Source: a virus. From it: a stretch of 37,564 bases of DNA. How positions within the stretch are numbered: the stretch's first letter is position 1; each line of letters opens with the position of its first letter. A model generated the notes under the pieces. That model made no database searches and was not told the origin of the DNA. It was given only the letters and a program-made list of their open reading frames with translations. The stretch is from IMG/VR virus record IMGVR_UViG_3300036853_000089, positions 1 through 37,564 of that record, one strand, 5' to 3'. The position numbers were made by a program, and so were the translations under genes. Positions 1 through 37,564 of the stretch are shown piece by piece.

Positions 1-122
1 TCCCGGCCCTGGCCGGCCACCCGGCGATTCTGGTGGCTCAGGCTGTCATCGGGGCGCTGCTGCCGTCGCTCGGTGGCGTGTCGCATGCGATCGCCGGGAC
101 GGAAGTCGTTCCCAAGTCATAG
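1..122 (+). CDS. 3' part of the small hydrophobic holin-like protein (duplicate of the window end)
   Basis: The frame from base 3 to the TAG at 120-122 encodes the last 39 residues of the 67-residue protein whose full copy lies at 37356-37559. It is truncated here only because the circular molecule was cut inside the gene. It directly precedes the barrel-protein gene at 168, so the lysis cassette continues across the junction. Confidence 0.8.
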   Translation, partial: PALAGHPAILVAQAVIGALLPSLGGVSHAIAGTEVVPKS

Positions 123-127
123 CGGTC
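1..127. repeat. Terminal direct repeat, left copy
   Basis: These 127 bases are identical to bases 37438-37564. A 127-base exact end overlap matches a common maximum k-mer of short-read assemblers, so it most likely marks a circular assembly rather than a biological terminal repeat. The true circle is then about 37,437 bp and any gene crossing the ends is intact. Confidence 0.95.
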
Positions 128-6072: not shown

Positions 6073-6269
6073 CTCTTTGCCCCCGTTGCCCTCACCCTCT
6101 GTCGTCGCACTACGCGGCGTACAGCAGCCCTCAGGGAGACGGGAAGTACGGCTACGGGATTGTCGGGAAGCACGGGTTCAGGTGCTGCGAGAGCGGGACC
6201 GGAGCGAATGCCTGTAGGTGCTGGCTGGACGAGTGGCCGAAGGAAGAGCCGCAAGGGGATCTGTGGTGA
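6069..6269 (+). CDS. Cys/His-rich mini-protein
   Basis: 66 residues. CPRCPHPLSSHY at the start, then FRCCESG and ACRCWLDEW give at least six Cys plus His, compatible with one or two zinc sites. The ATG overlaps the membrane mini-protein stop, and its TGA overlaps the methyltransferase GTG. No known family recognised. Confidence 0.6.
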   Translation: MTLCPRCPHPLSSHYAAYSSPQGDGKYGYGIVGKHGFRCCESGTGANACRCWLDEWPKEEPQGDLW

Positions 6270-7003
6270 AGCCGTACTACCAGGACGCGGCGGTGGCGAT
6301 CTACCACGGAAGCTGCGTCGATCTGCTGCCGCGCCTCGAGGCGGTGGACCACATCCTGACGGACCCGCCGTATTCCCGCGACCTGTATCTGTCGTTCCGG
6401 TCCAACAAGGGGGCCGGAAGCGGCAGCGCCTACCCAGCCAAGAGTCACCGAGAACTCGCCAATCAGGTAATCGGCGCGGTGGAGGATGTTTACGAGTCGG
6501 TCGCGCCGGCGTTCATGCGGTTGGCGCGGCGGTGGATCGTTGTATTCCACGACGCCGAGAGCGGCCACCTGTGGCGGGCACAGTTTGGCGACCTGTACGT
6601 CCGCGCCGGCGTCTGGGTCAAGGTGAACCCGGTACCGCAAATCAGCGGGGACAGGCCCGGGCAGGGATTTGAGTCAATCACCATCGCGCACGCCGCCGGC
6701 AGGAAGAGGTGGAACGGCGGCGGCCTCCCGGCGGTATGGCGTCATGCCTCAGCGAACGGGAATACGCCTGAGCGACCTGACCATCCCTGCCCGAAGCCGC
6801 TGCCGCTCATGGTCGAGCTGGTGTCCCTGTTCACCGACCCCGGCGAAACCATCCTCGACCCGTTCATGGGCTCCGGGACGACGCTGCGGGCCGCGAAGGA
6901 CTTGGGGCGCAAGGCCATCGGGATCGAGTGTGAGGAACGCTATTGCGAGATCGCCGCGAAGCGCATGGCTCAGGAAGTCCTACCGCTGGCGAGCCGAAGG
7001 TGA
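6266..7003 (+). CDS. Orphan DNA methyltransferase (adenine-N6 or cytosine-N4)
   Basis: 245 residues. The catalytic motif TDPPYS lies at about residues 32-37 and the SAM-binding motif DPFMGSGTT near residues 204-212, followed by GIECEERYCEIAAKR, the typical end of N6A/N4C methylases (DPPY motif first, beta-like order). It transfers a methyl group from SAM to a base exocyclic amine. No restriction enzyme is adjacent, so it is an orphan enzyme that may protect phage DNA from host restriction. Target site unknown. A second such gene lies at 35108. Confidence 0.9.
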   Translation: MKPYYQDAAVAIYHGSCVDLLPRLEAVDHILTDPPYSRDLYLSFRSNKGAGSGSAYPAKSHRELANQVIGAVEDVYESVAPAFMRLARRWIVVFHDAESGHLWRAQFGDLYVRAGVWVKVNPVPQISGDRPGQGFESITIAHAAGRKRWNGGGLPAVWRHASANGNTPERPDHPCPKPLPLMVELVSLFTDPGETILDPFMGSGTTLRAAKDLGRKAIGIECEERYCEIAAKRMAQEVLPLASRR

Positions 7004-7024
7004 CGGCTCAGGGGGAATTGTTCA

Positions 7025-7438
7025 ATGGCGATTAGGCGGGTGACGAGATATGTGAGCAGTCCTGTGTGGGATCTCTTGCTGCGTGACCAAGATGTTCCCG
7101 GTTTCTACAAGGAACCGCGCGGGTTCACTGACTACTATCCGGTGACAATCGAAATTGGCAAGGAGGAGCCCCAGGTGAAGACGAGGGAGCGGAGGGTGGA
7201 GGGGCACGCTTGGAGGAATTCACACTCAGGCGAAACGCTATTCATCGCCATGCCCGCGCCACCGTCAAGGCACAACTGTGCGAATGGCGAACCGTGCCTC
7301 CCTGCCGTCCTCATCGTGACCGAGCCGGTTCAGGAGCCGACGCTGGTCGAGGCGGCAGAACAATACCTTGAAGGCATGCTGACCAAAAGCGATCTGCGCG
7401 AAGCCCTAGCCCGCGAGAAGCAGAAGTCCACACGCTAG
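7025..7438 (+). CDS. Hypothetical protein
   Basis: 137 residues, ATG 7025 preceded by GGGGGAA. The N-terminal half has an aromatic strand-rich character (FYKEPRGFTDYYPVTIEI); the C-terminus is a charged helix (EAAEQYLEGMLTKSDLREAL). Two Cys lie close together near residues 85-91. I recognise no family. It lies between a DNA methyltransferase and the replication initiator, in the same direction. Confidence 0.6.
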   Translation: MAIRRVTRYVSSPVWDLLLRDQDVPGFYKEPRGFTDYYPVTIEIGKEEPQVKTRERRVEGHAWRNSHSGETLFIAMPAPPSRHNCANGEPCLPAVLIVTEPVQEPTLVEAAEQYLEGMLTKSDLREALAREKQKSTR

Positions 7439-7468
7439 CCGTTCACGTTCGACTCTCAGGGGGTGGGA

Positions 7469-8320
7469 GTGCCGAACAGGATCATTAAGGAGGTAGGGCT
7501 TACGTCGCGCAAGCTCGCCGCCGTCTCCGATTGGGGCGAACGCCTCTACTGGAGGATCTACCAAGCCGTGGACGACTTCGGCAGGTTCCACGGGGAACCA
7601 TCCCTCATCCGCGCCAGGTGCCTCCCCTTCATGCTCGACCGCTACTCCGAGGCTGACGTGAGAGCCGGCCGGGACGAGCTGGCCTCCATCGGCCTGCTGG
7701 TCCTCTACCGGGTCGGTGCGGATGACTTCATCGAGATCACCAAGTTCGACCAGCGTCGGCGCGCGGAAAAATCCAAATTCCCGTCCCCCGATGACGGCGT
7801 AGTGCTGTCACTTGACGGCAGGTTGCGGGCATCCGCGGCCGTAGTCGTAGGCGTAGTCGAAGACGTAGGCGAGATCGCTCTCGTAGTCGGGAAAACGGCG
7901 AGAGATAGCGAAACGTGCAGCACACCGAAAAGCCCCGAACCTGAGCCCGACCCACGGCCCGAGTCTCCCGCCGAGGAGCCCCGCTCCTTCGCCGCAGCTC
8001 CGCCCGTCGCTCCGCCTCAGGTTCTGCGACCACCGGAGCCCGACTGCCAGGACTGCTTCGGCCTGTTGCGCGTGCTGACCGAGGCGCTCGTGCAGTTCAC
8101 CGCCCCCGGCGAGCTGGTCCTGGGGTGGATCCACGGCCAGCACCGGAGGTTCGGTCTCGACCGGTGCTACCGGGCCGTGCGCTGGAAAGTCGAGACGGCG
8201 AGGGGGAAAGAGCGCATGTACCTGGCCCCACACGTGCTGTTCAAGCCGGCGAATTTCGAGATGACCATCAACGCCGTGGGGCACCAGGACACGCCCCGCC
8301 TGATTCACCCGAGGGTCTGA
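7469..8320 (+). CDS. Phage replication initiator (O/DnaD-like)
   Basis: 283 residues. The start at GTG 7469 gives the (M)PNRIIKE opening typical of this family and follows AGGGGG at 7459-7463; GTG 7463 is an alternative. Residues about 10-100 are a winged-helix DNA-binding region (LYWRIYQAVDDFGRFHG, ELASIGLLVLY). A low-complexity linker follows (about 115-195), then a C-terminal domain. By analogy with lambda O and related initiators it should bind an origin and recruit host replication factors. The linker DNA carries five iteron-like repeats, suggesting an origin inside the gene. No helicase loader was identified. Confidence 0.75.
   Translation: MPNRIIKEVGLTSRKLAAVSDWGERLYWRIYQAVDDFGRFHGEPSLIRARCLPFMLDRYSEADVRAGRDELASIGLLVLYRVGADDFIEITKFDQRRRAEKSKFPSPDDGVVLSLDGRLRASAAVVVGVVEDVGEIALVVGKTARDSETCSTPKSPEPEPDPRPESPAEEPRSFAAAPPVAPPQVLRPPEPDCQDCFGLLRVLTEALVQFTAPGELVLGWIHGQHRRFGLDRCYRAVRWKVETARGKERMYLAPHVLFKPANFEMTINAVGHQDTPRLIHPRV
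7840..7889 (+). repeat. ori: Iteron-like repeats, candidate replication origin
   Basis: The octamer CGTAG(T/G)CG occurs at 7840, 7846, 7852, 7864 and 7882, always at intervals that are multiples of six bases, followed by an A-rich segment at 7891-7914. All copies lie within the linker of the replication initiator gene, as lambda ori lies within gene O. I propose these as initiator-binding iterons. Low-complexity coding for Val/Gly residues is the alternative explanation. Confidence 0.5.
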
Positions 8321-11405: not shown

Positions 11406-11846
11406 GTGCAGACCATTCTCGTGACGAATGCTGGTTGCTGGCAGCGAATCAGAGGCATCGACGCCAAGGGATATGCGCGCATCACGGCAGAGGGGAAATC
11501 CCACAGGGCGCACCGCTATTTCTACGAAGCGTTCAACGGGCCAATTCCCGCTGGCCTCACTATCGACCATCTTTGCCGGAATCGCGCCTGTGTAAACCCG
11601 GCCCACCTGGAGGCCGTCACCAATCGAGAAAATCTTCTGCGTGGCGTGGGGACTTCGGCCACGAATGCCAGGAAGGATGTTTGCGCCCGCGGTCATGCTC
11701 CTGCATGGAAGAGCCGAACCGGCAAGCGCAGGGGGCGCCGCTGTCAGACATGCGAACGCGAAGACTGGAGAAATTGGGTCGCTCGTGGCAATAACCCGAA
11801 TGCGGCGAGAGCAAGAAGGAATGCCGCCAAGCAGGGCACTGTATGA
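11406..11846 (+). CDS. HNH endonuclease with C-terminal zinc tail, copy 5
   Basis: 146 residues from GTG 11406, right after the previous stop. GCWQRIRGIDAKGYARI, AHRYFYEAFNGPIPAG, core IDHLCRNRACVNPAHL, NRENLLRG, then CARGHAPAW and CQTCERED, followed by a basic Arg/Asn/Ala tail. All expected HNH_3 features are present, so it looks functional. Its stop overlaps the next ATG. Confidence 0.88.
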   Translation: MQTILVTNAGCWQRIRGIDAKGYARITAEGKSHRAHRYFYEAFNGPIPAGLTIDHLCRNRACVNPAHLEAVTNRENLLRGVGTSATNARKDVCARGHAPAWKSRTGKRRGRRCQTCEREDWRNWVARGNNPNAARARRNAAKQGTV

Positions 11847-12097
11847 GCGCGGAAGACCGCATCAAGGCGCTGGAGCAAGAGCGCGACTCCCTGAAAGAGC
11901 AACTCGACGCCGCGCAGGATGTGAAATCGTCCCTGCGCCGCAATGTTGAGGCGCTCGCGGAAGATGTGAAGGTGCTGAAAGAGCAACTCGCGGGGGCGCA
12001 TGCCATCAACTGCACCTGCAAGCACGAGCCCAGCAAGTCCGCATTTCGCTGTGACGCGTTGGCCGACCCCCGCTGCGCCGAGATGCGCCGTGGCTAA
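11843..12097 (+). CDS. Coiled-coil protein with Cys cluster
   Basis: 84 residues. Residues about 3-52 are a coiled coil with repeated KALEQERDSLKEQL and VKVLKEQL heptads. The end has CTCKHEP, FRCD and PRCAEM, a possible zinc site. It overlaps the following GTG by 8 bases. Unknown function; dimerisation is likely from the coiled coil. Confidence 0.6.
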   Translation: MSAEDRIKALEQERDSLKEQLDAAQDVKSSLRRNVEALAEDVKVLKEQLAGAHAINCTCKHEPSKSAFRCDALADPRCAEMRRG

Positions 12098-12419
12098 GAC
12101 GAGCCCGACGCAGCGCACCTTGGCTCTCCTGAAGTCCGAAGGCTGGGCCGTCGGTAAGGTCGAGCAGACCATCCCGAAGACGTTCATCAAGCGCGACCTG
12201 TTCGGCTTCCTCGACCTCATAGCCATCAAGCCCGGAGAGCCAGTGCTGGGCGTCCAGGTCACATCAGGGTCCAACGTCTCGGCGAGGGTGCAGAAGATCA
12301 ACGAACTGGAAGCATCAGCCATCTGGCGCGAGGTCGCACGGCTCGAGGTCCATGGGTGGCGCAAGGTGGTGGCGAGGGGGCAGAGGAAGACGTGGGAGTG
12401 TCGGAGGGTGAGGCTCTAA
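12090..12419 (+). CDS. PD-(D/E)XK-like nuclease superfamily protein
   Basis: 109 residues from GTG 12090. Residues about 11-75 show the fold pattern of small PD-(D/E)XK nucleases: Glu25 on a first helix/strand, RDLFGFLDLIAI with Asp36 and Asp42, and a following strand VLGVQVTSGS in which Gln56 and Thr58 stand where E-x-K is usual; a VSARVQKI helix follows. Similar Q-x-T/S phage proteins are thought to be Holliday-junction or VSR-like enzymes. The Gln variant may be active or inactive. Placed after the zinc/coiled-coil genes and before the methyltransferase. Confidence 0.55.
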   Translation: MAKTSPTQRTLALLKSEGWAVGKVEQTIPKTFIKRDLFGFLDLIAIKPGEPVLGVQVTSGSNVSARVQKINELEASAIWREVARLEVHGWRKVVARGQRKTWECRRVRL

Positions 12420-12973
12420 TGCTGAATCTCGAATCGCTGTGCAATCAGCTCTCTGCGGACCCGCTGCGCGACACGGACGCGCATCCGCTGGTGCTCTACA
12501 GCCTCGCGCGGTTCCTGCCGGCGCTCCGGGCTGTCGAGATCGGCGTCGACGACGGCTCGACGACTCGGCCCCTGCTGCTCGGCGTCGCTTCCGTCGACGG
12601 TCACCTGTGGAGCGTGGACCCGGCGCCGTGTGAGGCGACGAAGGCGCACATCGCTGAGTCGGGATACGCCGACCGCTGGACGTTCGAGAACGTCAAGTCG
12701 GCCGAGTTCGCCGCGCGCGCCCCGCAACCGCTCGACCTGGTCTTCATCGACGGCGACCACAGCTTCGCAGGCGTGGCGCGGGACTGGCTCGACTACGAGC
12801 CGCTCGTGCGTCCCGATGGTCTCATCGTGTTCCACGACGCGCTGAACAAGAAAGAGTTCCCGGGGATCTCGGCGCTCATCGATGAGCACATTCGCCCCTT
12901 CTGGGAGCGTTGGGAGTGCGTCACGCTGCCGTGGGGCTGGGGGTTGACGATCGTGCGGAAGGTCAAAATCTGA
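12419..12973 (+). CDS. Class I SAM-dependent methyltransferase (CmcI/Methyltransf_24-like)
   Basis: 184 residues, TAATG junction with the nuclease gene. SAM-binding motif VEIGVDDGSTT at about 39-49, acidic strand end SVDPAP (65-70), and LVFIDGDHSFAGVARDW at about 107-123, characteristic of the Methyltransf_24/CmcI group that methylates sugars or small molecules. It ends with the GLIVFHDA and WGWGLTIVRK strands. It opens a coupled cassette with a Pro/Cys mini-protein, a radical SAM enzyme and a glycosyltransferase, so glycan or peptide tailoring is a reasonable inference. Substrate unknown. Confidence 0.82.
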   Translation: MLNLESLCNQLSADPLRDTDAHPLVLYSLARFLPALRAVEIGVDDGSTTRPLLLGVASVDGHLWSVDPAPCEATKAHIAESGYADRWTFENVKSAEFAARAPQPLDLVFIDGDHSFAGVARDWLDYEPLVRPDGLIVFHDALNKKEFPGISALIDEHIRPFWERWECVTLPWGWGLTIVRKVKI

Positions 12974-13083
12974 TGGGCGACCGCAAGGCCCCAAATCCGC
13001 CACCGCCCGGCGCCGTGAAACCGCCGCCGCCCCCGCCACCACCTCCGAAGAAGACCTGCCCGCACTGTCGTGGGGTTCTGTGA
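12973..13083 (+). CDS. 36-residue Pro-rich Cys-pair mini-protein (possible radical SAM partner)
   Basis: ATG 12973 overlaps the methyltransferase stop (TGATG) and its TGA overlaps the radical SAM ATG at 13083. The peptide has a charged start (MGDRKAPN), a run of four prolines, GAVK, a run of nine prolines, KKT and a C-terminal CPHCRGVL. Overlap on both sides shows that it is co-translated with the cassette. A short peptide beside a radical SAM/SPASM-like enzyme raises the possibility of a modified-peptide precursor, but the CxxC could simply bind zinc, and Pro-rich mini-proteins also occur in other phages. No homology is known to me. Confidence 0.55.
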   Translation: MGDRKAPNPPPPGAVKPPPPPPPPPKKTCPHCRGVL

Positions 13084-14165
13084 TGGGGCAGGAATACAGC
13101 AACCTCAAGATGGCCTGGCACTATGTGAGGGACGGCGGACTACCGGCCGCCCCGAAGCAGGCGCAGGTCATCCTCTCGGACATGTGCAACCAGAACTGCC
13201 ACTTCTGCGCCTACCGCATGGACGGGTACACGTCGAACGAGCTGTTCGTAGCGGACTCGACGCCTGCCAAGTACGGGCACAACAACCCGAAGCGATGGAT
13301 GCCGACCGACCGTGCGCTGGCGCTGCTCGAGGAGCTCGCCGGCGCCGGTGTTCTCGCGGTGCAGTTCACCGGGGGCGGGGAGCCGACGGTGCACCCGGAG
13401 CACGAGCGCATCTTCAAGCGCACTCTCGAACTCGGGCTCAAGGCGGCGCTTGTCTCGAACGGCCTGCACTGGTCGGATCACCTGCTCGGGATGCTGCCGC
13501 GGTTCTCCTGGGTGCGGGTGAGCGTGGATGCCGGTACGCCGGCCACCTACGCCACCATCCGGGACACCCCGCCGGGGAACTTCGAAAAGGTGTGGAATCA
13601 CGTCGCGCGCCTGGCGAACGACATCCGCCAGCAGCTCGGGTGCCTGCTCGGTATCGGGTACGTCGTCACCCCGGAGAACTGGAAGGAGATCGGGGACGGC
13701 GTGGCGCGCGCCGCCGACTCCGGGGCCGCGTACATCCGCCTGTCGGCGATGTTCAATCCGGACGGGGCCGCGCCCTACGTCGAGACCTACGAGCAGATCC
13801 AGCACGCAATCGGGGAGGCGCGCGCCGCGCACGAGCGCGAGGACTTCGCCGTGCACGACCTGTTCGGGGATCGGCTGCAGGACCTGGCCGAAGGGCCTCC
13901 GGACTACCCGACGTGCTACTACCAGGCGTATACGACCTACGTGGGAGGCGACCTCAACCTCTATCGGTGCTGCGTCCTCGCCTACAACAAGCGCGGACTG
14001 CTCGGCTCCCTCAAGGGGCAGACGTTCGAGCAGGCATGGAAGGCGGCCCAGGAAGACTTCAAGACCTTCGATGCGGGTTCGTGCGATCGGTGCCAATTCA
14101 ACGCGCGCAACAGGGCCATGAACTACATCGCCGGAGGCGACCCAGTGCACAAGGAATTCCCGTGA
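13083..14165 (+). CDS. Radical SAM enzyme with SPASM-like C-terminus
   Basis: 360 residues (GTG 13080 would add one). The cluster motif C-x3-C-x2-C is at Cys35, Cys39 and Cys42 in SDMCNQNCHFCAYR, followed by the SAM-contact motif FTGGGEPT at about 95-102 and typical barrel strands (LVSNGLHW, VRVSVDAG). The C-terminal part carries Cys278, Cys296/297, Cys334 and Cys337, a SPASM/twitch-like set for an auxiliary Fe-S cluster. Such enzymes modify peptides, sugars or nucleosides through a 5'-deoxyadenosyl radical. The partner genes are a methyltransferase, a Pro/Cys mini-gene and a glycosyltransferase. All key residues are present. Confidence 0.88.
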   Translation: MGQEYSNLKMAWHYVRDGGLPAAPKQAQVILSDMCNQNCHFCAYRMDGYTSNELFVADSTPAKYGHNNPKRWMPTDRALALLEELAGAGVLAVQFTGGGEPTVHPEHERIFKRTLELGLKAALVSNGLHWSDHLLGMLPRFSWVRVSVDAGTPATYATIRDTPPGNFEKVWNHVARLANDIRQQLGCLLGIGYVVTPENWKEIGDGVARAADSGAAYIRLSAMFNPDGAAPYVETYEQIQHAIGEARAAHEREDFAVHDLFGDRLQDLAEGPPDYPTCYYQAYTTYVGGDLNLYRCCVLAYNKRGLLGSLKGQTFEQAWKAAQEDFKTFDAGSCDRCQFNARNRAMNYIAGGDPVHKEFP

Positions 14166-14989
14166 AGGCCCCCGCAATATCGGCCGTGCTGACCGTCCAC
14201 GACAGGTCGCGCGAGGTAATGGAAAAGACGTTCGAGCCCCTGGAGTCCTTCGCGACCGAGGACTCTGACGACCATCTCATCGTGGTCTTGGACCGCTCCC
14301 CAGAGAGAGTCGAATCCGACATCGAGGAGCTGTGCCCATTCGACAGCCCATTCGTCGACTACGTCCACGTCATGGGGGAGCCGGGATGGCTCTGCCCAGC
14401 CCGCGCCTGGAATGCCGGATTTGCCGAGGTGCAGTCGGAGCTGACGTTCGTCATGTCCAGCGAGGTCATCCTCGCCCCTGGTGCGATCGACCGCTGCAGG
14501 GCCCTACTGGGTGCAGCCCCGGCCGTCCTGTTCGGCAAGTGCGTGGAGTCGGAGCCGGGCCGCTACGGTGGCTCGACCGCCTCAGGGGTGCTGTGCTCGG
14601 CCGAGCAGGCTCGCCCCCTCGGCTTCATCGCCTGCATCCCAACATGGGCCATTCGTGCCACGCAGGGGTACGACGAGGGCTTCATGGCCGGGTACTGGTA
14701 CGACGACGACGACTTCTTCTACAGGCTCTGGAAGCTCGGCCTTCCGTTCCTGTTCGAGGACAGCGTCTCAGGCGTGCACCAGAGCCACCCACGCCCCGTT
14801 CTCGACACGCCCGAGGGGCAGGCCGGGATCGCGAGGAACCGCGCCTACATCCTCGCCAAGCACGGCGCAGAGCACCCCATGAACGGGCAGCGGATACTCG
14901 GCAGGCGGCAGCCCGGGAAGACGCTCTGGGTGAAGGACGCCGCGTTCCTGACCGAGCACCACCTGCGAGCGTGGGGGTTCGAGGGTTGA
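14162..14989 (+). CDS. GT2-like (GT-A fold) glycosyltransferase
   Basis: 275 residues, GTG overlapping the radical SAM stop. AISAVLTVHDRS (residues 5-16) is the first nucleotide-binding strand of family 2 transferases; LIVVLDRS follows; WNAGFAEVQSELTFVMSSEV (83-102) is the region that usually carries DxD, here SSE; and the acidic motif WYDDDDFFYRLWKLG (179-193) corresponds to the catalytic ED-x-D-F-x-x-R site. It would transfer an activated sugar. As the last enzyme of the cassette it may glycosylate a phage protein, the mini-protein product or a host glycan. Confidence 0.78.
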   Translation: MKAPAISAVLTVHDRSREVMEKTFEPLESFATEDSDDHLIVVLDRSPERVESDIEELCPFDSPFVDYVHVMGEPGWLCPARAWNAGFAEVQSELTFVMSSEVILAPGAIDRCRALLGAAPAVLFGKCVESEPGRYGGSTASGVLCSAEQARPLGFIACIPTWAIRATQGYDEGFMAGYWYDDDDFFYRLWKLGLPFLFEDSVSGVHQSHPRPVLDTPEGQAGIARNRAYILAKHGAEHPMNGQRILGRRQPGKTLWVKDAAFLTEHHLRAWGFEG

Positions 14990-15390
14990 CCCCGCGCTGC
15001 TGCGTCCCCGCCTGCACCCGCCCTGTCGTCACCCTCCGCCGCCGCCTCTGCCAGACGCACTACAACCGCGCCAAGGACCGCCGCCGCAACTCCCACGGCA
15101 CCCTCGCCTGGGCGACCCTGCTCGCCAACCCGACCCTCCTCAACGGCGAACGCACCCGCCTGGAACAGATCATCCAAGCCCCCCAGCCGCAGACCTTCCA
15201 AGCCGACGACCTCCGCTCATGCCTGCTCTGCAGCAACTGCAAACCCGTCCCACCAAGAACCATCGCCTGCACCAAAAATCAGTGGGGAACCATAAAACTA
15301 CTGAGCCTCGCATCCGTCGAACGTGGTGGGATTCCTACCCCACTGGTGGGAAGAGCTAAAACTTGTCCGAGCTTTTCCCACAAGCCCTAG
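14986..15390 (+). CDS. Zinc-finger protein (CxxxxC...CxxH type)
   Basis: 134 residues from TTG 14986, overlapping the glycosyltransferase stop. RCCVPACTRPVVTLRRRLC with QTHYNRAKDRRR is a zinc finger seen in many small phage proteins, followed by a helical segment and a second cluster, CLLCSNCKP. The C-terminal third looks less structured. It ends the early operon; 486 noncoding bases follow. A DNA- or RNA-binding role is likely but unspecified. Confidence 0.6.
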   Translation: MTPRCCVPACTRPVVTLRRRLCQTHYNRAKDRRRNSHGTLAWATLLANPTLLNGERTRLEQIIQAPQPQTFQADDLRSCLLCSNCKPVPPRTIACTKNQWGTIKLLSLASVERGGIPTPLVGRAKTCPSFSHKP

Positions 15391-15428
15391 TACCACGCCA
15401 CTTTCCACGACACACCAGGTAGCGCAGA

Positions 15429-15490
15429 GGGGGATGAAAGGCGGGGGGACTATAGGGGGGTGGATAGCAGGGGGTGCTACGATCCCCCCC
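15429..15490 (+). other. Four-run G tract, G-quadruplex candidate, with C7 partner
   Basis: G5 (15429-15433), G6 (15443-15448), G6 (15455-15460) and G5 (15470-15474) are separated by 9, 6 and 9 bases, an intramolecular quadruplex pattern on the + strand. C7 at 15484-15490 can instead pair with the last G-run, and TAGCA/TGCTA flank that run (15465-15469 with 15475-15479), so a hairpin and a quadruplex may compete. This is the only tract of this kind in the window. Confidence 0.5.
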
Positions 15491-15491
15491 A

Positions 15492-15544
15492 GGTAGTAGC
15501 AGTACACGCAGTACCAGGGTAGTTACCTAGGGCCTACTACTACC
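15492..15544. repeat. Inverted repeat GGTAGTAG/CTACTACC
   Basis: Perfect 8-bp arms at 15492-15499 and 15537-15544. The spacer contains GGTAGTTACC and CCTAGG, themselves small palindromes. It lies immediately after the G/C-run tract. Possible terminase-binding or RNA-hairpin element. Confidence 0.4.
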
Positions 15545-15876
15545 ACCACACGCTAATACTCCACACCACGGAACAGCACATACACCGCGAGCAATCGGGG
15601 AGATACGACAACCGACCTCGACTCTCCGGCTACGGTGCACCACGGAGCCTGATACCAGCGAGCTGTGGAGCGTAGGAGCGGCGTGCCAAGCGAGAGAGAG
15701 AGTAGAGCGAGAGCCTCGAAACATATGCGCCCATGCTGCTGAGAACGCGAGACTTAGCCAGGGCGACATAATTGAGGCGAAAGACGGTAAGTGCATAGGG
15801 CTCAACGAGTAACGCAGGTCGACATAACGCATATTCTCGGACGTTGAGTCGAGCGGATTCACCCCTGGGGTACACC

Positions 15877-16071
15877 ATGGCGCAGGCAGGTAGGCTCCCC
15901 CTATCCGGTCAGAAAATCATCGGGGATCCGCCCGGTAGTGTACTTACTCCCCCCCTCCAGAATTTGCCCTCCCGGAAACGGCTTCTGGACATGGAGCCGG
16001 ACGAGCTGGACGAGTTCTTCCTCGGCTGCATCCGGTGGGTGCTGCACGACGACGAGCGGGTGTCTGGGTGA
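15877..16071 (+). CDS. Small protein preceding the terminase genes
   Basis: 64 residues from ATG 15877; ATG 15991 would give 26. The last half, MEPDELDEFFLGCIRWVLHDDE, is acidic with a helix. Its stop overlaps the GTG of the next gene, supporting expression. It could be part of the packaging set. No family recognised. Confidence 0.45.
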   Translation: MAQAGRLPLSGQKIIGDPPGSVLTPPLQNLPSRKRLLDMEPDELDEFFLGCIRWVLHDDERVSG

Positions 16072-16514
16072 GGGCGCCGACGTCTGTGGAGGTGAAGCCG
16101 GACGACCCGGAGATTCTCCGCATGTTGGCGGCGGAGGAGGACGCACGGGCGAGGGGAGCGACGGGGAAAGAGCTGCGGCTGTTGGCGCTGGCGCGGGCGC
16201 GGTACACGAAGCGGGTGGGGTTGGGGCGGAAGGTTCTGGAGTCGTCGGACCTCGAAGACCTGGTTGGGAAGTCGGCGCAGTGGATGCGCGGGCGCGGGTT
16301 CGACCTGCTGACGAAAGCGGCGGAGGGGACGCCGTGCCGGTGCTGTGAGAAGTGCCGGGTGAAGCAGCCGGACCTGAAGGCGGTGGCGTTGCTGGCGGAG
16401 ACGGTGAACAAGGCGTTGGCGCTCGAGTTGGCGCGGTTGCAGGCGAAGAAAGAGAACAGCGGGAGGCCGGCGACGGTGAAGCTGGACTGGCCGTCGGAGG
16501 GGGCGAAGGGGTGA
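16068..16514 (+). CDS. terS: Candidate terminase small subunit
   Basis: 148 residues from GTG 16068 (GTGA overlap). It is strongly helical and basic (ARARGATGKELRLLALARAR, KALALELARLQAKKE), with CRCCEKC near residue 91 as a possible zinc cluster. It overlaps TerL by 4 bases and occupies the normal small-terminase position, where the protein recognises packaging DNA. I see no clear terS motif, so the call rests on position, size and helical character. Confidence 0.5.
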   Translation: MRAPTSVEVKPDDPEILRMLAAEEDARARGATGKELRLLALARARYTKRVGLGRKVLESSDLEDLVGKSAQWMRGRGFDLLTKAAEGTPCRCCEKCRVKQPDLKAVALLAETVNKALALELARLQAKKENSGRPATVKLDWPSEGAKG

Positions 16515-17743
16515 CGTCGCGCATCGTGCTGGACCCGCCGGTGCTGTGGCCGCACCAGCAGGAGTTCGTCGACCACCCGTCGCGCTACACGGTGTGCAAG
16601 TCGGCGACGAAGTGCGGGAAGACCATGGCGGCGGCGTGGTGGCTGGCGCGCGAGGCGGTACGGAACCCGGGAGCGCTGTTCTGGTGGGTGGGGCCGACGA
16701 ACGAGGTGGGGCTCATCGGCTACAAGACCGTGCTGCACTTCATGGAGTCGGCCGGGGTGGTGGAGAAGCGCGGCGAGCGGCCCTGGAAGTTCCGCATGAT
16801 GAACGGGACGATGGTCTGCCTGAAGACGGCGCAGGAGCCGGACTACCTGCGCGGCGCCGGGGTCAAGGGGATGGTGCTCGACGAGGCCGGGTCTCCGGAC
16901 TTCGATGATGCGTGGTCGGAGATTCACACGACCATCCAGGCGACCCGCGGGCGGCTGAAGATCATCGGCAACCCGGGCGAGGCGGGCAGCTTCTTCGACA
17001 ACGCCGAGATGTGGGGCGAGGACCCGGAGATGCCGGAGTGGTCGTTCCGGCGCTGGAAGTTCATGGACCGGCCGACGGCGACCGAGAAGGACCTCCGGGA
17101 CGCGATGAAGGAGCTCGGCGGGGAGGACTCGCCGGACTTCCGCCGGTACTACCTGGGCGAGACCATCCGCGGCGAGGGGGTGTTCTTCTACGGCCTCGAG
17201 CAGGTCGCGACGGCCGAGATGCAGGAGCCGCAGCCGGGCCGCGAGTACGTCATCGGGGTCGACCCGGCGATCAAGTCGGACTATTTCGTGGCGTCGGTGT
17301 TCGACCTGCAGGACTGGCGTCAGGTGGCGGTGAGCCGGCACAAGGGGCCGCCGTCCGAGCAGCAGGAGGATGAGACCGAGCGGCTGGCGCGCGAGTACAA
17401 CGACGCCGCGGTGGTGATCGAGGTGAACGGTCCGGGCGGGCCGATTCACCAGCGCCTGGTCGCGCGCGGCTGCCGGATGTGGCCCTTCAACACCTCCGGG
17501 AAATCCAAGCCGGAGATCCTCTACGGCTACCGCTCGGCCATCAGCCGCGGGCAGGTGAAGCTGCTCAACGACCCCTACCAGCTGCGCGAGCACTACCAGT
17601 TCCAGCGCAAGCAGTCCGGGGTCACCGGGTCGAAGTTCTCGGCGCCCTCCGGTGGGCATGACGACATGGTGATGGCGAACGCCATCGCCGTGCACGGGCT
17701 GCAGCAGTACATCGTCCCAGAGTACATGGACCTGGCGCTGTGA
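16511..17743 (+). CDS. terL: Terminase large subunit (TerL)
   Basis: 410 residues from GTG 16511, overlapping the previous stop by 4 bases. ATPase: Walker A SATKCGKT at about 31-38 and Walker B MVLDEAG near 121-127. Nuclease: RNase H-like strand VIGVDPAIKSDYF and later HDDMVMANA with acidic metal ligands. It cuts concatemeric DNA and pumps it through the portal into proheads. All expected motifs are present, and the portal gene follows with a 4-base overlap. The sequence does not settle cos versus headful packaging. Confidence 0.93.
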   Translation: MTSRIVLDPPVLWPHQQEFVDHPSRYTVCKSATKCGKTMAAAWWLAREAVRNPGALFWWVGPTNEVGLIGYKTVLHFMESAGVVEKRGERPWKFRMMNGTMVCLKTAQEPDYLRGAGVKGMVLDEAGSPDFDDAWSEIHTTIQATRGRLKIIGNPGEAGSFFDNAEMWGEDPEMPEWSFRRWKFMDRPTATEKDLRDAMKELGGEDSPDFRRYYLGETIRGEGVFFYGLEQVATAEMQEPQPGREYVIGVDPAIKSDYFVASVFDLQDWRQVAVSRHKGPPSEQQEDETERLAREYNDAAVVIEVNGPGGPIHQRLVARGCRMWPFNTSGKSKPEILYGYRSAISRGQVKLLNDPYQLREHYQFQRKQSGVTGSKFSAPSGGHDDMVMANAIAVHGLQQYIVPEYMDLAL

Positions 17744-19842
17744 AGCTCCGGGAGCGGTTCCGCGAGGCGGTGGAGGTCTTCCGGGGGGTCGAGAAGACCG
17801 CCGGGGGGCAGCAGGCCGCATGGTTCACCGCTTTCGGCATGGGCCTCGACCAGCTCTTCGGAACGGACTCCCTGCAGCAGCCGTTCGCGCAGCACCCGAC
17901 CGTGTACGCCGCGGTCAAGGCGATCGCTTCGAACCTCGGCGGCCTGCCACTGGAGATGTTCCCGGCCTCCGACGAGCGGCACGAGCTCCCGATCACCGAC
18001 AGCCGGGTGCTGGCGCTGCTGTCGAACCCGAACCCCGACATGGAGCTGGCGCAGCTGCTCGAGGGGACCTACACGTCGCTGCAGCTCTGGGGCGACGCCT
18101 ACTGGTTCTTCGAGGGGATGTCGCGGCGGAATGCTTCGGACGCGCGCTTCCCGACCCGGCTCGAGCTGTGGGAGGCGAACCGGACGCGCCGCTTCACCAA
18201 GACCGACGGCAGCGTTTGGTACGAGTACCGCCTGAGCGACGTCACGAAGACGGCGCCGGCGTCCCAGGTCATCCGGTTCAACTTCTACAACCCCTACGAC
18301 CCGACGTGCGGCCTCGCCCCGCTGCAGGCGGCGATCGTCATCGCGAACGCCGACTACAAGGCGGGGATCTGGAACCGGGCCTTCTTCGACAACTACGCCA
18401 TCCCGACCGGGCTCGTCACCCCGAAGCCCGGGCAGATCACCGACAAGGACGCCATGCTGCGCGTCCGCGACCAGCTCGAGCAGCGGCACCAGGGCCCGTC
18501 CAAGCGCGGCCGGCTCGGGGCGGTCAACATGGCGCTGGAGTTCCTCGAGCTCGGCACCAGCCACAAGGACATGGACTTCCCGCAGCTGCTGGACGCTGCG
18601 ACCGAGCGGATCCTGATGGTCTTCCGGGTCCCGCCGACCGTTGCCGGCATCTCGAAGAACGCCAATTACCAGGAGGCCACCCGCCAGGCGAAGCAGTTCT
18701 GGGCGAACCACCTGCCGACGGCTCTCTACGTCGCCGCGGTGATCAAGCGCCGCCTGTGCGACCCCTTCGGAATCGACGAGGTGCCCTACTTCAAGACCGA
18801 GAGCATCAAGGCGCTGATCGAGGACCAGGAGTCGCTGTCGAACCAGGCGCGGAACTACTTCAACATGGGCGTCCCGTTCGAACAGATCAACGAGCGCCTC
18901 GAGCTCGGGTTCGACACCACGGACCACATCGCGCTCGAGACCTCCTGGCTGCCGTTCTCCATGGTGAACGCCGACGAGCAGGCGCTCATCGACCCGGCCG
19001 ACAAGGGGGGAACGAACCAGCCCTCGGCAGACGCGAACCAGCAGAACCAGCCCGGGGACGAGAGCACCGTCGCCAACGACCCGACGCAGGGGAAGTCGGC
19101 GGAGTTCCTGCGGGCGCTGTCCTGGCGCACGCTGATCTCCAAGGTGCGCGACGTCGAGATCGCCATGAAGCGCACCGTCACGGACCACTTCTTCGCGCTC
19201 AAGCGCGAGGTGCTGGCGAAAGTGCACGGGTCGCAGCGATCGAAAGACTCGCGCCCGGCGGAAATCTCGGTCGAGGCGGTCATGTTCGACGAGGAGAAGG
19301 CGGCGAAGGACATCCGCCGGCGCACGTCGCCGCTCCTCAAGAGCGCCGCCGACCAGGGGATCCGGACCGTCCTCGCGGAGCTGCGCCTCTCGCTCGACTT
19401 CGAGACCGTTCCCGGAGAGGTGCAGGCGTTCCTGCAGGAGAAGACCTTCGCCATCCCGGAGCTGGTCGACACCCCGGCCGCGGAGCGCCTCCGGTTCGCG
19501 CTGCAGGAGGGGCTGCAGAAGGGCGAGACCGTCGACCAGATCGCCGCGCGCGTCTCGGAGGTCTTCGAGGTGCAGCGCGCCCGCGCCGAGCGCATCGCCC
19601 GCACCGAGACGGCCGCATCGTTCACCGCCGGCCGGTTCGAGACGATGAAGGAAGCCGGGGTCTCGAAGATCGAGTGGTTGTCGGCGCGTGACGCGCGCGT
19701 GCGCGATTCGCACGAACAGCTCGACGGCGAGATCGTCATGGTCGGCGACCGGTTCGCGAACGGCCTGCTCTATCCGCTGGATCCTGCCGGACCTCCGGAG
19801 GAGATCGTCAACTGCCGCTGCATTCCCCTTCCGGCGGCGTGA
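17740..19842 (+). CDS. Portal protein fused to a MuF-type minor head domain
   Basis: 700 residues, GTG start overlapping the TerL stop. Residues about 1-420 match HK97-type portals (HPTVYAAVKAIASNLGGLPL, GDAYWFF, PTVAGISKNANYQEATRQAK, ESIKALIEDQE). A Gln/Asn-rich linker follows (about 425-450). The C-terminal part ends in the Mu gpF/minor head signature: RAERIARTETAASFTAGRFE, WLSARDARVRDSHEQLDG and a final VNCRCIPLP. The portal forms the DNA gateway; MuF domains are head-morphogenesis proteins often encoded separately just downstream. Here they are one continuous frame. Confidence 0.92.
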   Translation: MKLRERFREAVEVFRGVEKTAGGQQAAWFTAFGMGLDQLFGTDSLQQPFAQHPTVYAAVKAIASNLGGLPLEMFPASDERHELPITDSRVLALLSNPNPDMELAQLLEGTYTSLQLWGDAYWFFEGMSRRNASDARFPTRLELWEANRTRRFTKTDGSVWYEYRLSDVTKTAPASQVIRFNFYNPYDPTCGLAPLQAAIVIANADYKAGIWNRAFFDNYAIPTGLVTPKPGQITDKDAMLRVRDQLEQRHQGPSKRGRLGAVNMALEFLELGTSHKDMDFPQLLDAATERILMVFRVPPTVAGISKNANYQEATRQAKQFWANHLPTALYVAAVIKRRLCDPFGIDEVPYFKTESIKALIEDQESLSNQARNYFNMGVPFEQINERLELGFDTTDHIALETSWLPFSMVNADEQALIDPADKGGTNQPSADANQQNQPGDESTVANDPTQGKSAEFLRALSWRTLISKVRDVEIAMKRTVTDHFFALKREVLAKVHGSQRSKDSRPAEISVEAVMFDEEKAAKDIRRRTSPLLKSAADQGIRTVLAELRLSLDFETVPGEVQAFLQEKTFAIPELVDTPAAERLRFALQEGLQKGETVDQIAARVSEVFEVQRARAERIARTETAASFTAGRFETMKEAGVSKIEWLSARDARVRDSHEQLDGEIVMVGDRFANGLLYPLDPAGPPEEIVNCRCIPLPAA

Positions 19843-35019: not shown

Positions 35020-35111
35020 AGACCCACGAGCGCGACCTGCTGCCGTTCGTCCTCATCATCGGCGCGGCCTTCGTCTTCGGCCTGTCGCTGATGTGGCTGG
35101 TGAGCCGGTGA
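35010..35111 (+). CDS. 33-residue single-pass membrane peptide
   Basis: GTG 35010 to TGA 35111. After a charged start (MQLKTHERD), residues about 9-30 form one transmembrane helix (LLPFVLIIGAAFVFGLSLMW), ending VSR. It overlaps the previous gene by 10 bases and the methyltransferase by 4, so it is embedded in the coupled operon. Possible holin-related or envelope-acting micropeptide. Confidence 0.45.
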   Translation: MQLKTHERDLLPFVLIIGAAFVFGLSLMWLVSR

Positions 35112-36151
35112 GGAAGATCATCCAAGGCGATTGCCTTGAGGCCATGCGGCGGCTGGACGCGGCGAGCGTGGACGCCATCGTGACCGATCCACCCTACGGC
35201 CTCCGGTTCATGGGGAAGGAATGGGACCGTGGGATTCCGGGCGCGCCGTTCTGGACCGAGGCGCTGCGGGTGGCGAAGCCGGGGACGTACCTGCTGGCGA
35301 TGGGCGGGACGCGGACCTATCACCGGCTGGCCAGTGCGGTGGAGGACGCGGGCTGGGAGATCCGCGACTGCCTGATGTGGCTGTACGGGCAGGGATTCCC
35401 GAAGGGGAAATGGTGCCTCAAGCCCGCATGGGAGCCGATCCTGCTGGCGAAGAAGAAGGGGAAGGCGCGGTTGCAGATCGACCGATGCCTGATCGGCGCT
35501 GAGGGCGGACACAAGGGCGCGGGCGCGGGCGCGGGCGCTCGCGTCTTCGGTGACGGCCTGAACGGCCCGAGAGCGCCGCAGATTCCCGGCCGTGGCCGCT
35601 GGCCCGCCAACGTCGTTCTCGACGAGGCCGCCGCTGCCGCGCTGGACAAACAGACCGGCAAACTCGGCCGGTCCTCGGGGACCGAGGTCGCGGGCAATGC
35701 GCATCCGCATGGGATCTATGGCAACCGAGAGAAAGAGGGGCGCGGCCAGATCGGGTTTGGCGACTCCGGCGGCGCATCCCGCTTCTTCTACTGCGCCAAG
35801 GCGAGCCGCGGCGAGCGCGAGGCGGGGCTGCGCGAGGCGGGGCAACGCTATTGCATGGGGAACTTCCCCGCCGAAGGCCCCGCCAAGATGGGATCGACGA
35901 ACGTCATCAACCGTCACCCCACCGTCAAGCCCATCGCCCTCATGCGCTGGCTGTGCCGCCTCGTGACGGCCCCCGGCGGCCTCGTGCTCGACCCGTTCTG
36001 CGGCTCTGGAACCACCGGCTGCGCTGCCGTCCGCGAGGGCTTCTCCTTCCTCGGAATCGAGAAGCAGGAGGAGTACGTCACCATCGCCGGGGCGCGGGTG
36101 GAGCACTGGCACTGGAACACCGAACCCACCCTAAAGCGAGTGTCGCGATGA
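35108..36151 (+). CDS. Orphan DNA methyltransferase (adenine-N6/cytosine-N4), second copy
   Basis: 347 residues from GTG 35108. TDPPYG at about 26-31, the target region in the middle (with GAGAGAGAR low complexity near 137-145) and DPFCGSGTTG followed by FLGIEKQEEYVTIAG near the end give a beta-type order. This is the phage type with CEWP-like segments (KPAWEPILLAKK). It methylates DNA using SAM. No restriction partner is near, so protection or regulation is likely. It is not closely similar to the enzyme at 6266. Confidence 0.92.
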   Translation: MRKIIQGDCLEAMRRLDAASVDAIVTDPPYGLRFMGKEWDRGIPGAPFWTEALRVAKPGTYLLAMGGTRTYHRLASAVEDAGWEIRDCLMWLYGQGFPKGKWCLKPAWEPILLAKKKGKARLQIDRCLIGAEGGHKGAGAGAGARVFGDGLNGPRAPQIPGRGRWPANVVLDEAAAAALDKQTGKLGRSSGTEVAGNAHPHGIYGNREKEGRGQIGFGDSGGASRFFYCAKASRGEREAGLREAGQRYCMGNFPAEGPAKMGSTNVINRHPTVKPIALMRWLCRLVTAPGGLVLDPFCGSGTTGCAAVREGFSFLGIEKQEEYVTIAGARVEHWHWNTEPTLKRVSR

Positions 36152-37355: not shown

Positions 37356-37559
37356 ATGCGTAAGTATCTCGTTGGCGCGCAGTGGGCGAATGCCCTTGTC
37401 CTGCTGGCTCAGGTTCTCAACCAGGTGACCGGGGTGTTCCCGGCCCTGGCCGGCCACCCGGCGATTCTGGTGGCTCAGGCTGTCATCGGGGCGCTGCTGC
37501 CGTCGCTCGGTGGCGTGTCGCATGCGATCGCCGGGACGGAAGTCGTTCCCAAGTCATAG
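37356..37559 (+). CDS. Small hydrophobic protein, holin candidate
   Basis: 67 residues from ATG 37356, preceded by AAAGGAGGGAG. An in-frame GTG at 37305 overlapping the previous stop would add 17 residues (VIRELLLFRRLKKEGVQ). Two semi-hydrophobic segments, about 10-31 (WANALVLLAQVLNQVTGVF) and 35-60 (PAILVAQAVIGALLPSLGG), suggest a membrane hairpin like class II holins. In the circular genome it is directly followed by the barrel-protein gene at 168. Confidence 0.5.
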   Translation: MRKYLVGAQWANALVLLAQVLNQVTGVFPALAGHPAILVAQAVIGALLPSLGGVSHAIAGTEVVPKS

Positions 37560-37564
37560 CGGTC
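37438..37564. repeat. Terminal direct repeat, right copy
   Basis: Identical to bases 1-127, covering the end of the holin-like gene and the first bases of the following intergenic hairpin. It is redundant in a circular map. Confidence 0.95.

Follow-up and report, generated by a model that had tools for sequence, protein, structure and literature searches.

Glycosylation of phage virions is known from a few mycobacteriophages, in which it affects immune recognition. It has been described for Che8, Corndog and Myrna (Freeman et al. 2023, as cited in PMC12363180 and PMC13313380), and a pair of a glycosyltransferase (GT) and a methyltransferase (MT) has been proposed for Rhodococcus phages in the citing papers. 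Hypervariable regions of pelagimyophages carry GTs and gene cassettes with radical S-adenosylmethionine (SAM) genes (PMC7029224). Here we analysed a locus of the IMG/VR virus record IMGVR_UViG_3300036853_000089 (37,564 nucleotides, the whole of which is called the window below), in which the genes for an MT, a 36-residue proline-rich mini-protein, a radical SAM enzyme (rSAM) and a GT overlap end to end. We regard it with good confidence as a sugar- or glycan-tailoring cassette, and virion proteins are its somewhat favoured acceptor.

In common with the mycobacteriophage systems, the locus has a phage-encoded glycosyltransferase as tailoring system; those accounts mention no radical SAM enzyme, whereas rSAM is the conserved centre of the present cassette, for which virion modification is proposed. 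The pelagimyophage regions likewise combine a GT-rich phage region with radical SAM genes; they differ in lying in the tail-fibre region of large myophages and in their authors' reading, O-chain modification (PMC7029224). Podovirus ctQWt234 (MW202801) has a like cassette in the order capsid - rSAM - GT - PhyH dioxygenase - MT - NodB-like - GT - stabilisation protein, but its rSAM is ~25% identical to ours, lies on a long, unsure branch and is not accompanied by the mini-gene. Earlier papers note radical SAM genes in phage regions rich in GTs but give no functional analysis of them (PMC7029224 included), and the literature searched, which left most subscription journals outside, does not describe a radical SAM family that is specific to phages and belongs to glycosylation cassettes. 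The first-pass annotation knew of no phage system with exactly this set; the literature searched does not contradict it, although the ingredients, phage GT with MT and virion glycosylation, are known.

The overlapping genes and the radical SAM enzyme

Every junction of the four-gene chain overlaps by 1-4 nt, and all four open reading frames (ORFs) lie where the first-pass annotation had placed them (Table 1). The MT stop and the ATG of the mini-ORF have one base in common (TGATG, 12973), as do the mini-ORF stop and the ATG of rSAM (TGATG, 13083), and the rSAM stop overlaps the GTG start of GT as GTGA (14162-14165). The chain runs past 12419-14989 both ways, into an upstream ORF (TAATG, 12419) and a downstream ORF starting with TTG (14986).

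rSAM scores 57.5 bits against PF04055 (cut-off 29.5), and its C-x3-C-x2-C motif (C35/C39/C42) is invariant in 61 alignment rows, so that motif and family agree on the radical SAM identity assigned earlier. In the C-terminal part, C278, C296, C334 and C337 are invariant in the family and C297 is nearly so. These cysteines had been called SPASM-like; an invariant C-terminal set is indeed present, but not the full seven-Cys SPASM arrangement with two auxiliary clusters, and Pfam gave no match of rSAM to SPASM (PF13186). As judged from sequence, the set fits a twitch-like enzyme with a single auxiliary cluster. None of the NCBIfam models, RiPP-maturase models included (RiPP, ribosomally synthesised and post-translationally modified peptide), reaches its cut-off on rSAM, and NCBIfam matches across the family scatter thinly over many models. 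The motif begins at residue 35 of 360, with one short helix ahead of it in the AlphaFold2 (AF2) model, which leaves too little space for a RiPP recognition domain at the N terminus.

The AF2 model (mean predicted local distance difference test score, pLDDT, 93.4) matches DesII, SkfB, BlsE and SuiB with template modelling (TM) scores of ~0.6, and EpeE also resembles it. BlsE and DesII, which act on sugar-nucleotides, are the top profile and fold matches among solved structures at 14-18% identity, and BlsE ranked first with the family profile. Since both sugar- and peptide-acting enzymes are matched, the fold alone leaves both substrates open. One reading is that rSAM acts directly on a virion protein, at an amino-acid side chain or the backbone, without involvement of the sugar, with GT and MT as parallel modifiers of that protein. 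The equal closeness of the fold to SkfB, SuiB and EpeE and to the sugar enzymes is consistent with this, as is the adjacency of virion genes to the cassettes, but the steady partners of rSAM are glycosyltransferases rather than peptides or recognition proteins, and the enzyme has no room for a recognition domain. We therefore consider such direct protein modification improbable.

The core of rSAM also shows a weak likeness to prokaryotic viperin (pVip), with 47.5 bits against NF038283 and a PADLOC pVip match of 3.7e-16. This, and the use of GTs in known base hypermodification, would suit a role in nucleic-acid or nucleotide chemistry, whether hypermodified DNA bases, as the first-pass annotation had considered, or a viperin-like antiviral or anti-host nucleotide. 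The viperin score lies far under the NF038283 cut-off of 180 bits, however, and the invariant 4-Cys auxiliary cluster of the family is not known from viperins. The gene context is unrelated to that of pVip, and the genes tested, which give hypermodification no support, include no recognisable base hydroxymethylase or nucleotide kinase. Nucleic-acid or nucleotide chemistry is accordingly very unlikely.

The MT is probably the O-methyltransferase of the cassette, and its homologues adjoin rSAM in loci L013, L027, L049, L051 and L081. Pfam assigns it to Methyltransf_24; the CmcI-like label given to it before did not hold, as CmcI is a weak profile match (E ~1e-3) behind many O-methyltransferases. 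With a profile of the phage homologues the top PDB match is 6g7d, which we take to be MeT1, a methylmannose 1-O-methyltransferase; tRNA and small-molecule O-methyltransferases follow close behind. The MeT1 enzyme is described in PMC9883506, which does not give that entry code. Because the matches are mixed, the acceptor of the MT is not readable from its sequence.

The GT was correctly annotated as a family 2 (GT2)-like glycosyltransferase: it matches PF00535 (23.8 bits, cut-off 23.3), its AF2 model (pLDDT 85.9) has a GT-A fold, and residues 180-185 (YDDDDF) form an acidic metal motif. Foldseek with this model returned chondroitin polymerase (1.9e-11), WrtF and polypeptide GalNAc-transferases, that is, GT-A enzymes building polysaccharides or glycosylating peptides. 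O-antigen conversion of the GtrABC type relies on a flippase and a membrane-bound bactoprenol GT; hydropathy gave no transmembrane segment in the GT (19-aa maximum 1.05), and no flippase-like family turned up either in the window proteins searched or in the pooled neighbours.

The rSAM family, its partners and its placement

Scans with the single rSAM protein came back empty from both viral and genome contigs, owing to the narrowness of exact peptide patterns. An alignment seeded with three distant phage homologues was then scanned over viral contigs and genomes, revealing 315 rSAM relatives in viral contigs, the best at 52% identity; locus counts given out of 80 below refer to the best 80 of these 315. 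The same profile found a handful of relatives at 36-44% identity in genomes, one of which (L088) is identical in sequence to a viral contig (L029), followed by a distinct group at 22-30%. In the tree, 60 of the 63 rows in the set that holds rSAM of the window are viral (support 86), and the other main clade is cellular in 72 of 74 rows (support 100), which places rSAM, by its sequence, in a virus-dominated family. In the nearest relative, L005, both rSAM and an orthologue of the GT (43%) are retained, separated by a 75-aa ORF and an HNH-type gene (7306-7761, by eye), with a basic 78-aa ORF upstream. An HNH_3 gene likewise stands upstream of the cassette in the window, suggesting that homing genes move around these cassettes.

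The association of the family with GTs and MTs is steady. Neighbour genes were first grouped into clusters blind to annotation, after which Pfam supplied their types, and since the gene caller erred on several GC-rich loci, above all L005, the counts of neighbours are minimum values. A GT-type gene lies within three genes of rSAM in at least 63 of 80 loci, and methyltransferase clusters lie within the same distance in at least 28 of 80. Across 28 longer records, a whole-record search that takes in records of 105-205 kb, 38 of 45 PF00535 matches lie within 5 kb of rSAM where 10.3 are expected, a proximity that 20,000 random placements never matched; in the 205-kb record L062, the sole two PF00535 matches both lie within 3 kb. 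A pooled Pfam scan of 143 viral neighbours is led by GT2 (28), followed by methyltransferases, Gly_transf_sug, GT8 and nucleoside diphosphate (NDP)-sugar epimerases. The virion or host glycan tailoring that the first-pass annotation had listed among possible roles thus gains strong support from comparative gene context.

Within the same cassette of locus L050, a second radical SAM protein (6566-8116) with SPASM similarity is fused to a methyltransferase, and members of its gene cluster (cluster 6) stand beside rSAM in L013, L019, L029, L059 and others. Another cluster, seen in 17 loci (for example L074:4235-4909) and often directly after the capsid gene, has weak MptE-like (PF01973) similarity and is possibly a further glycosyltransferase.

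Many cassettes stand amid virion genes. The order is capsid - MptE-like - MT - rSAM - GT2 - connector in L052, L074 and L083, terminase - GT2 - MT - GT - rSAM - portal in L006 (similar in L012), tail genes - GT2 - rSAM - tape measure in L009, and rSAM - GT2 - GT8-like - terminase - portal in L038 and L047. An HK97-type capsid gene lies within ~5 kb of rSAM in 8 of the 9 records having one, several of these contigs being short, so this proximity is supportive rather than decisive. Distances from rSAM to the terminase large subunit (TerL, phrog_2) are mixed, from ~1.4 kb to far off, and for this reason placement was judged solely from the capsid proximity and from the gene orders of single loci. 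That one enzyme set occurs at differing insertion points argues for a mobile module for tailoring, under joint selection with virion production.

Alternatively, the cassette could modify a host surface glycan for serotype conversion or superinfection exclusion, with GT and MT acting on O-antigen or capsule and rSAM altering one sugar. The radical SAM gene of SynMITS9220M01 stands beside heptose genes, and the pelagimyophage study takes GT-rich regions with radical SAM cassettes as host surface modification (PMC7029224). The cellular sister clade, too, has methyltransferases, transketolase halves, NDP-sugar epimerases and DegT as neighbours, as in surface-sugar loci. The GT of the window is soluble, however, with no GtrA/GtrB-type flippase or membrane GT nearby, and many phages carry the cassette amid capsid, connector, terminase and tail genes, fitting late expression. 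Modification of the host surface is therefore rather unlikely. A related rSAM clade adjoins split transketolase genes in L003, a phage of 735 kb, and in many bacterial and archaeal loci, a neighbourhood pointing to an uncharacterised surface-sugar pathway.

The gene placement, the lack of a membrane GT or flippase and the mycobacteriophage precedent make virion proteins the best acceptor candidate, and the explanation that we prefer overall, by a modest degree of confidence, is a glycan-tailoring cassette acting on them. The data themselves show what the genes are and how they are coupled, the steady GT and MT partners of the rSAM family and its position amid virion genes in many phages; from these contexts we infer a sugar chemistry for rSAM, a virion protein as acceptor and the following order of steps. 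Expression of the cassette would probably coincide with that of the late genes. The soluble GT-A enzyme would transfer the sugar of a host sugar-nucleotide to an acceptor, most likely a capsid, connector or tail protein of the virion, and the MT would then cap or alter that sugar by O-methylation. rSAM may catalyse a radical rearrangement on the sugar, the sugar-nucleotide or the glycosylated residue, with epimerisation, dehydration, deoxygenation and decarboxylation as candidates, as for DesII, BlsE and AprD4. More tentatively, a virus-specific radical SAM/twitch lineage present in hundreds of environmental tailed phages may act by radical chemistry on sugars that virion glycoproteins carry.

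Several observations weigh against this explanation. The fold and profile of rSAM resemble the peptide-acting SkfB, SuiB and EpeE too, and about 17 of 80 loci are without a recognised GT within three genes, partly owing to gene-calling errors (L005, corrected). The phage encodes an integrase, which also speaks for modification of the host surface. In the window, ~1.0 kb separates GT from the ORF at the small-terminase position, so that the cassette is here a putative member of the late operon at most.

The proline-rich mini-ORF

The mini-ORF encodes MGDRKAPNPPPPGAVKPPPPPPPPPKKTCPHCRGVL, with the runs of four and nine prolines and the CPHC described earlier. An ATG ORF coupled on both sides arose in 526 of 100,000 simulated gaps of equal length and the same composition, and 622 of 300,000 reproduced both 1-nt overlaps exactly; the proline codons are mixed, with CCG, CCA, CCC and CCT all used. 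The rare double coupling and the mixed synonymous codons favour translation over chance.

The first-pass annotation had proposed checking whether homologous phage loci keep a short Pro-rich CxxC gene directly upstream of rSAM, and had counted its absence as refuting; we found it in no relative examined. Among the viral relatives, no ORF with a proline run and CxxC stands beside rSAM on either side; the small ORFs at this position vary from phage to phage and are unrelated to the mini-gene, or there is no ORF there. A tblastn search with the mini-protein gave no match in phage records, and its matches in the fetched loci are low-complexity proline stretches only. The scan with the portal returned no close relative of this phage, so that the comparison of the mini-gene covers more distant kin. 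Being absent from the relatives, the mini-ORF is not a defining part of the system.

A RiPP-like role, also suggested before, would make the 36-aa Pro/Cys peptide a precursor that is matured by rSAM and then methylated and glycosylated. The coupling of the mini-ORF to MT and rSAM beyond chance, and the presence of SkfB and SuiB among the structural matches of rSAM, would fit such a pathway. It finds no similar peptide in any relative, though, and rSAM has no fused recognition domain (no search was made for a separate recognition protein) and misses all RiPP-maturase cut-offs of NCBIfam. The mini-protein has two cysteines in its core, and we saw neither a leader-core layout nor a protease or exporter. 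A RiPP precursor is thus extremely improbable, and the mini-ORF is most probably a small gene that is translated but confined to its lineage, rather than a substrate. As guesses, the nine-proline stretch may slow ribosomes and tune the coupling to rSAM, and CPHC may bind a metal, the product being a small metal-binding protein.

Genome setting and implications

A 127-bp direct repeat stands at both ends of the window (1-127 = 37438-37564 exactly), and the 37,564-base record is thus a complete virus genome. It is siphovirus-like, and the integrase gene makes a temperate lifestyle probable. Pfam and PHROG searches of the window proteins also revealed capsid, head-tail adaptor, tail and tape-measure genes. 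Portal and TerL have distant matches only among named phages. Between the cassette and the terminase region, 15391-16034 (~640 bp) has no convincing ORF, no notable repeats and no Rfam match, and is possibly a packaging or promoter site; Rfam found nothing in the whole window.

Table 1. Coordinates of the cassette genes and other features in the window
Feature	Position	Strand	Evidence and remarks
SAM-dependent methyltransferase (MT), Methyltransf_24	12419..12973	+	PF13578 4.8e-20
Mini-ORF, 36 aa, Pro-rich	12973..13083	+	CPHC near end; 1-nt overlaps with both neighbours; not conserved
Radical SAM enzyme (rSAM), putatively twitch-like with one 4-Cys auxiliary cluster	13083..14165	+	PF04055 2.4e-15
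GT-A fold family 2 glycosyltransferase (GT)	14162..14989	+	PF00535 4.6e-5; soluble
Short ORF, stop overlaps MT start (TAATG at 12419)	12090-12419		small nuclease-type fold by eye; no match in Pfam or PHROG
TTG-started ORF, 134 aa, overlaps GT stop	14986-15390		Cys-rich; Cys/His pairs like small phage zinc-ribbon proteins, by eye
HNH_3 endonuclease gene	11406-11846		shortly upstream of cassette
Terminase large subunit	16352..17743	+	phrog_2 3.7e-28; actual start probably ~16511; downstream of cassette
Portal fused to Mu F-like head morphogenesis domain	17740..19842	+	PF04860 4.3e-47, PF04233 2.5e-19, phrog_2662
Integrase	1180-1974
N6/N4 DNA methylase genes, two	6263-7003 and 35093-36151

If radical chemistry does act on virion sugars in these phages, particle surfaces would bear sugar types that ordinary glycosyltransferases cannot make. 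Were this true for hundreds of environmental phages, phage glycan decoration would be commoner, and its chemistry more varied, than has been described. A radical SAM family without an NCBIfam equivalog model would also become accessible to functional study, and its substrate, whether sugar or protein, would be directly testable.

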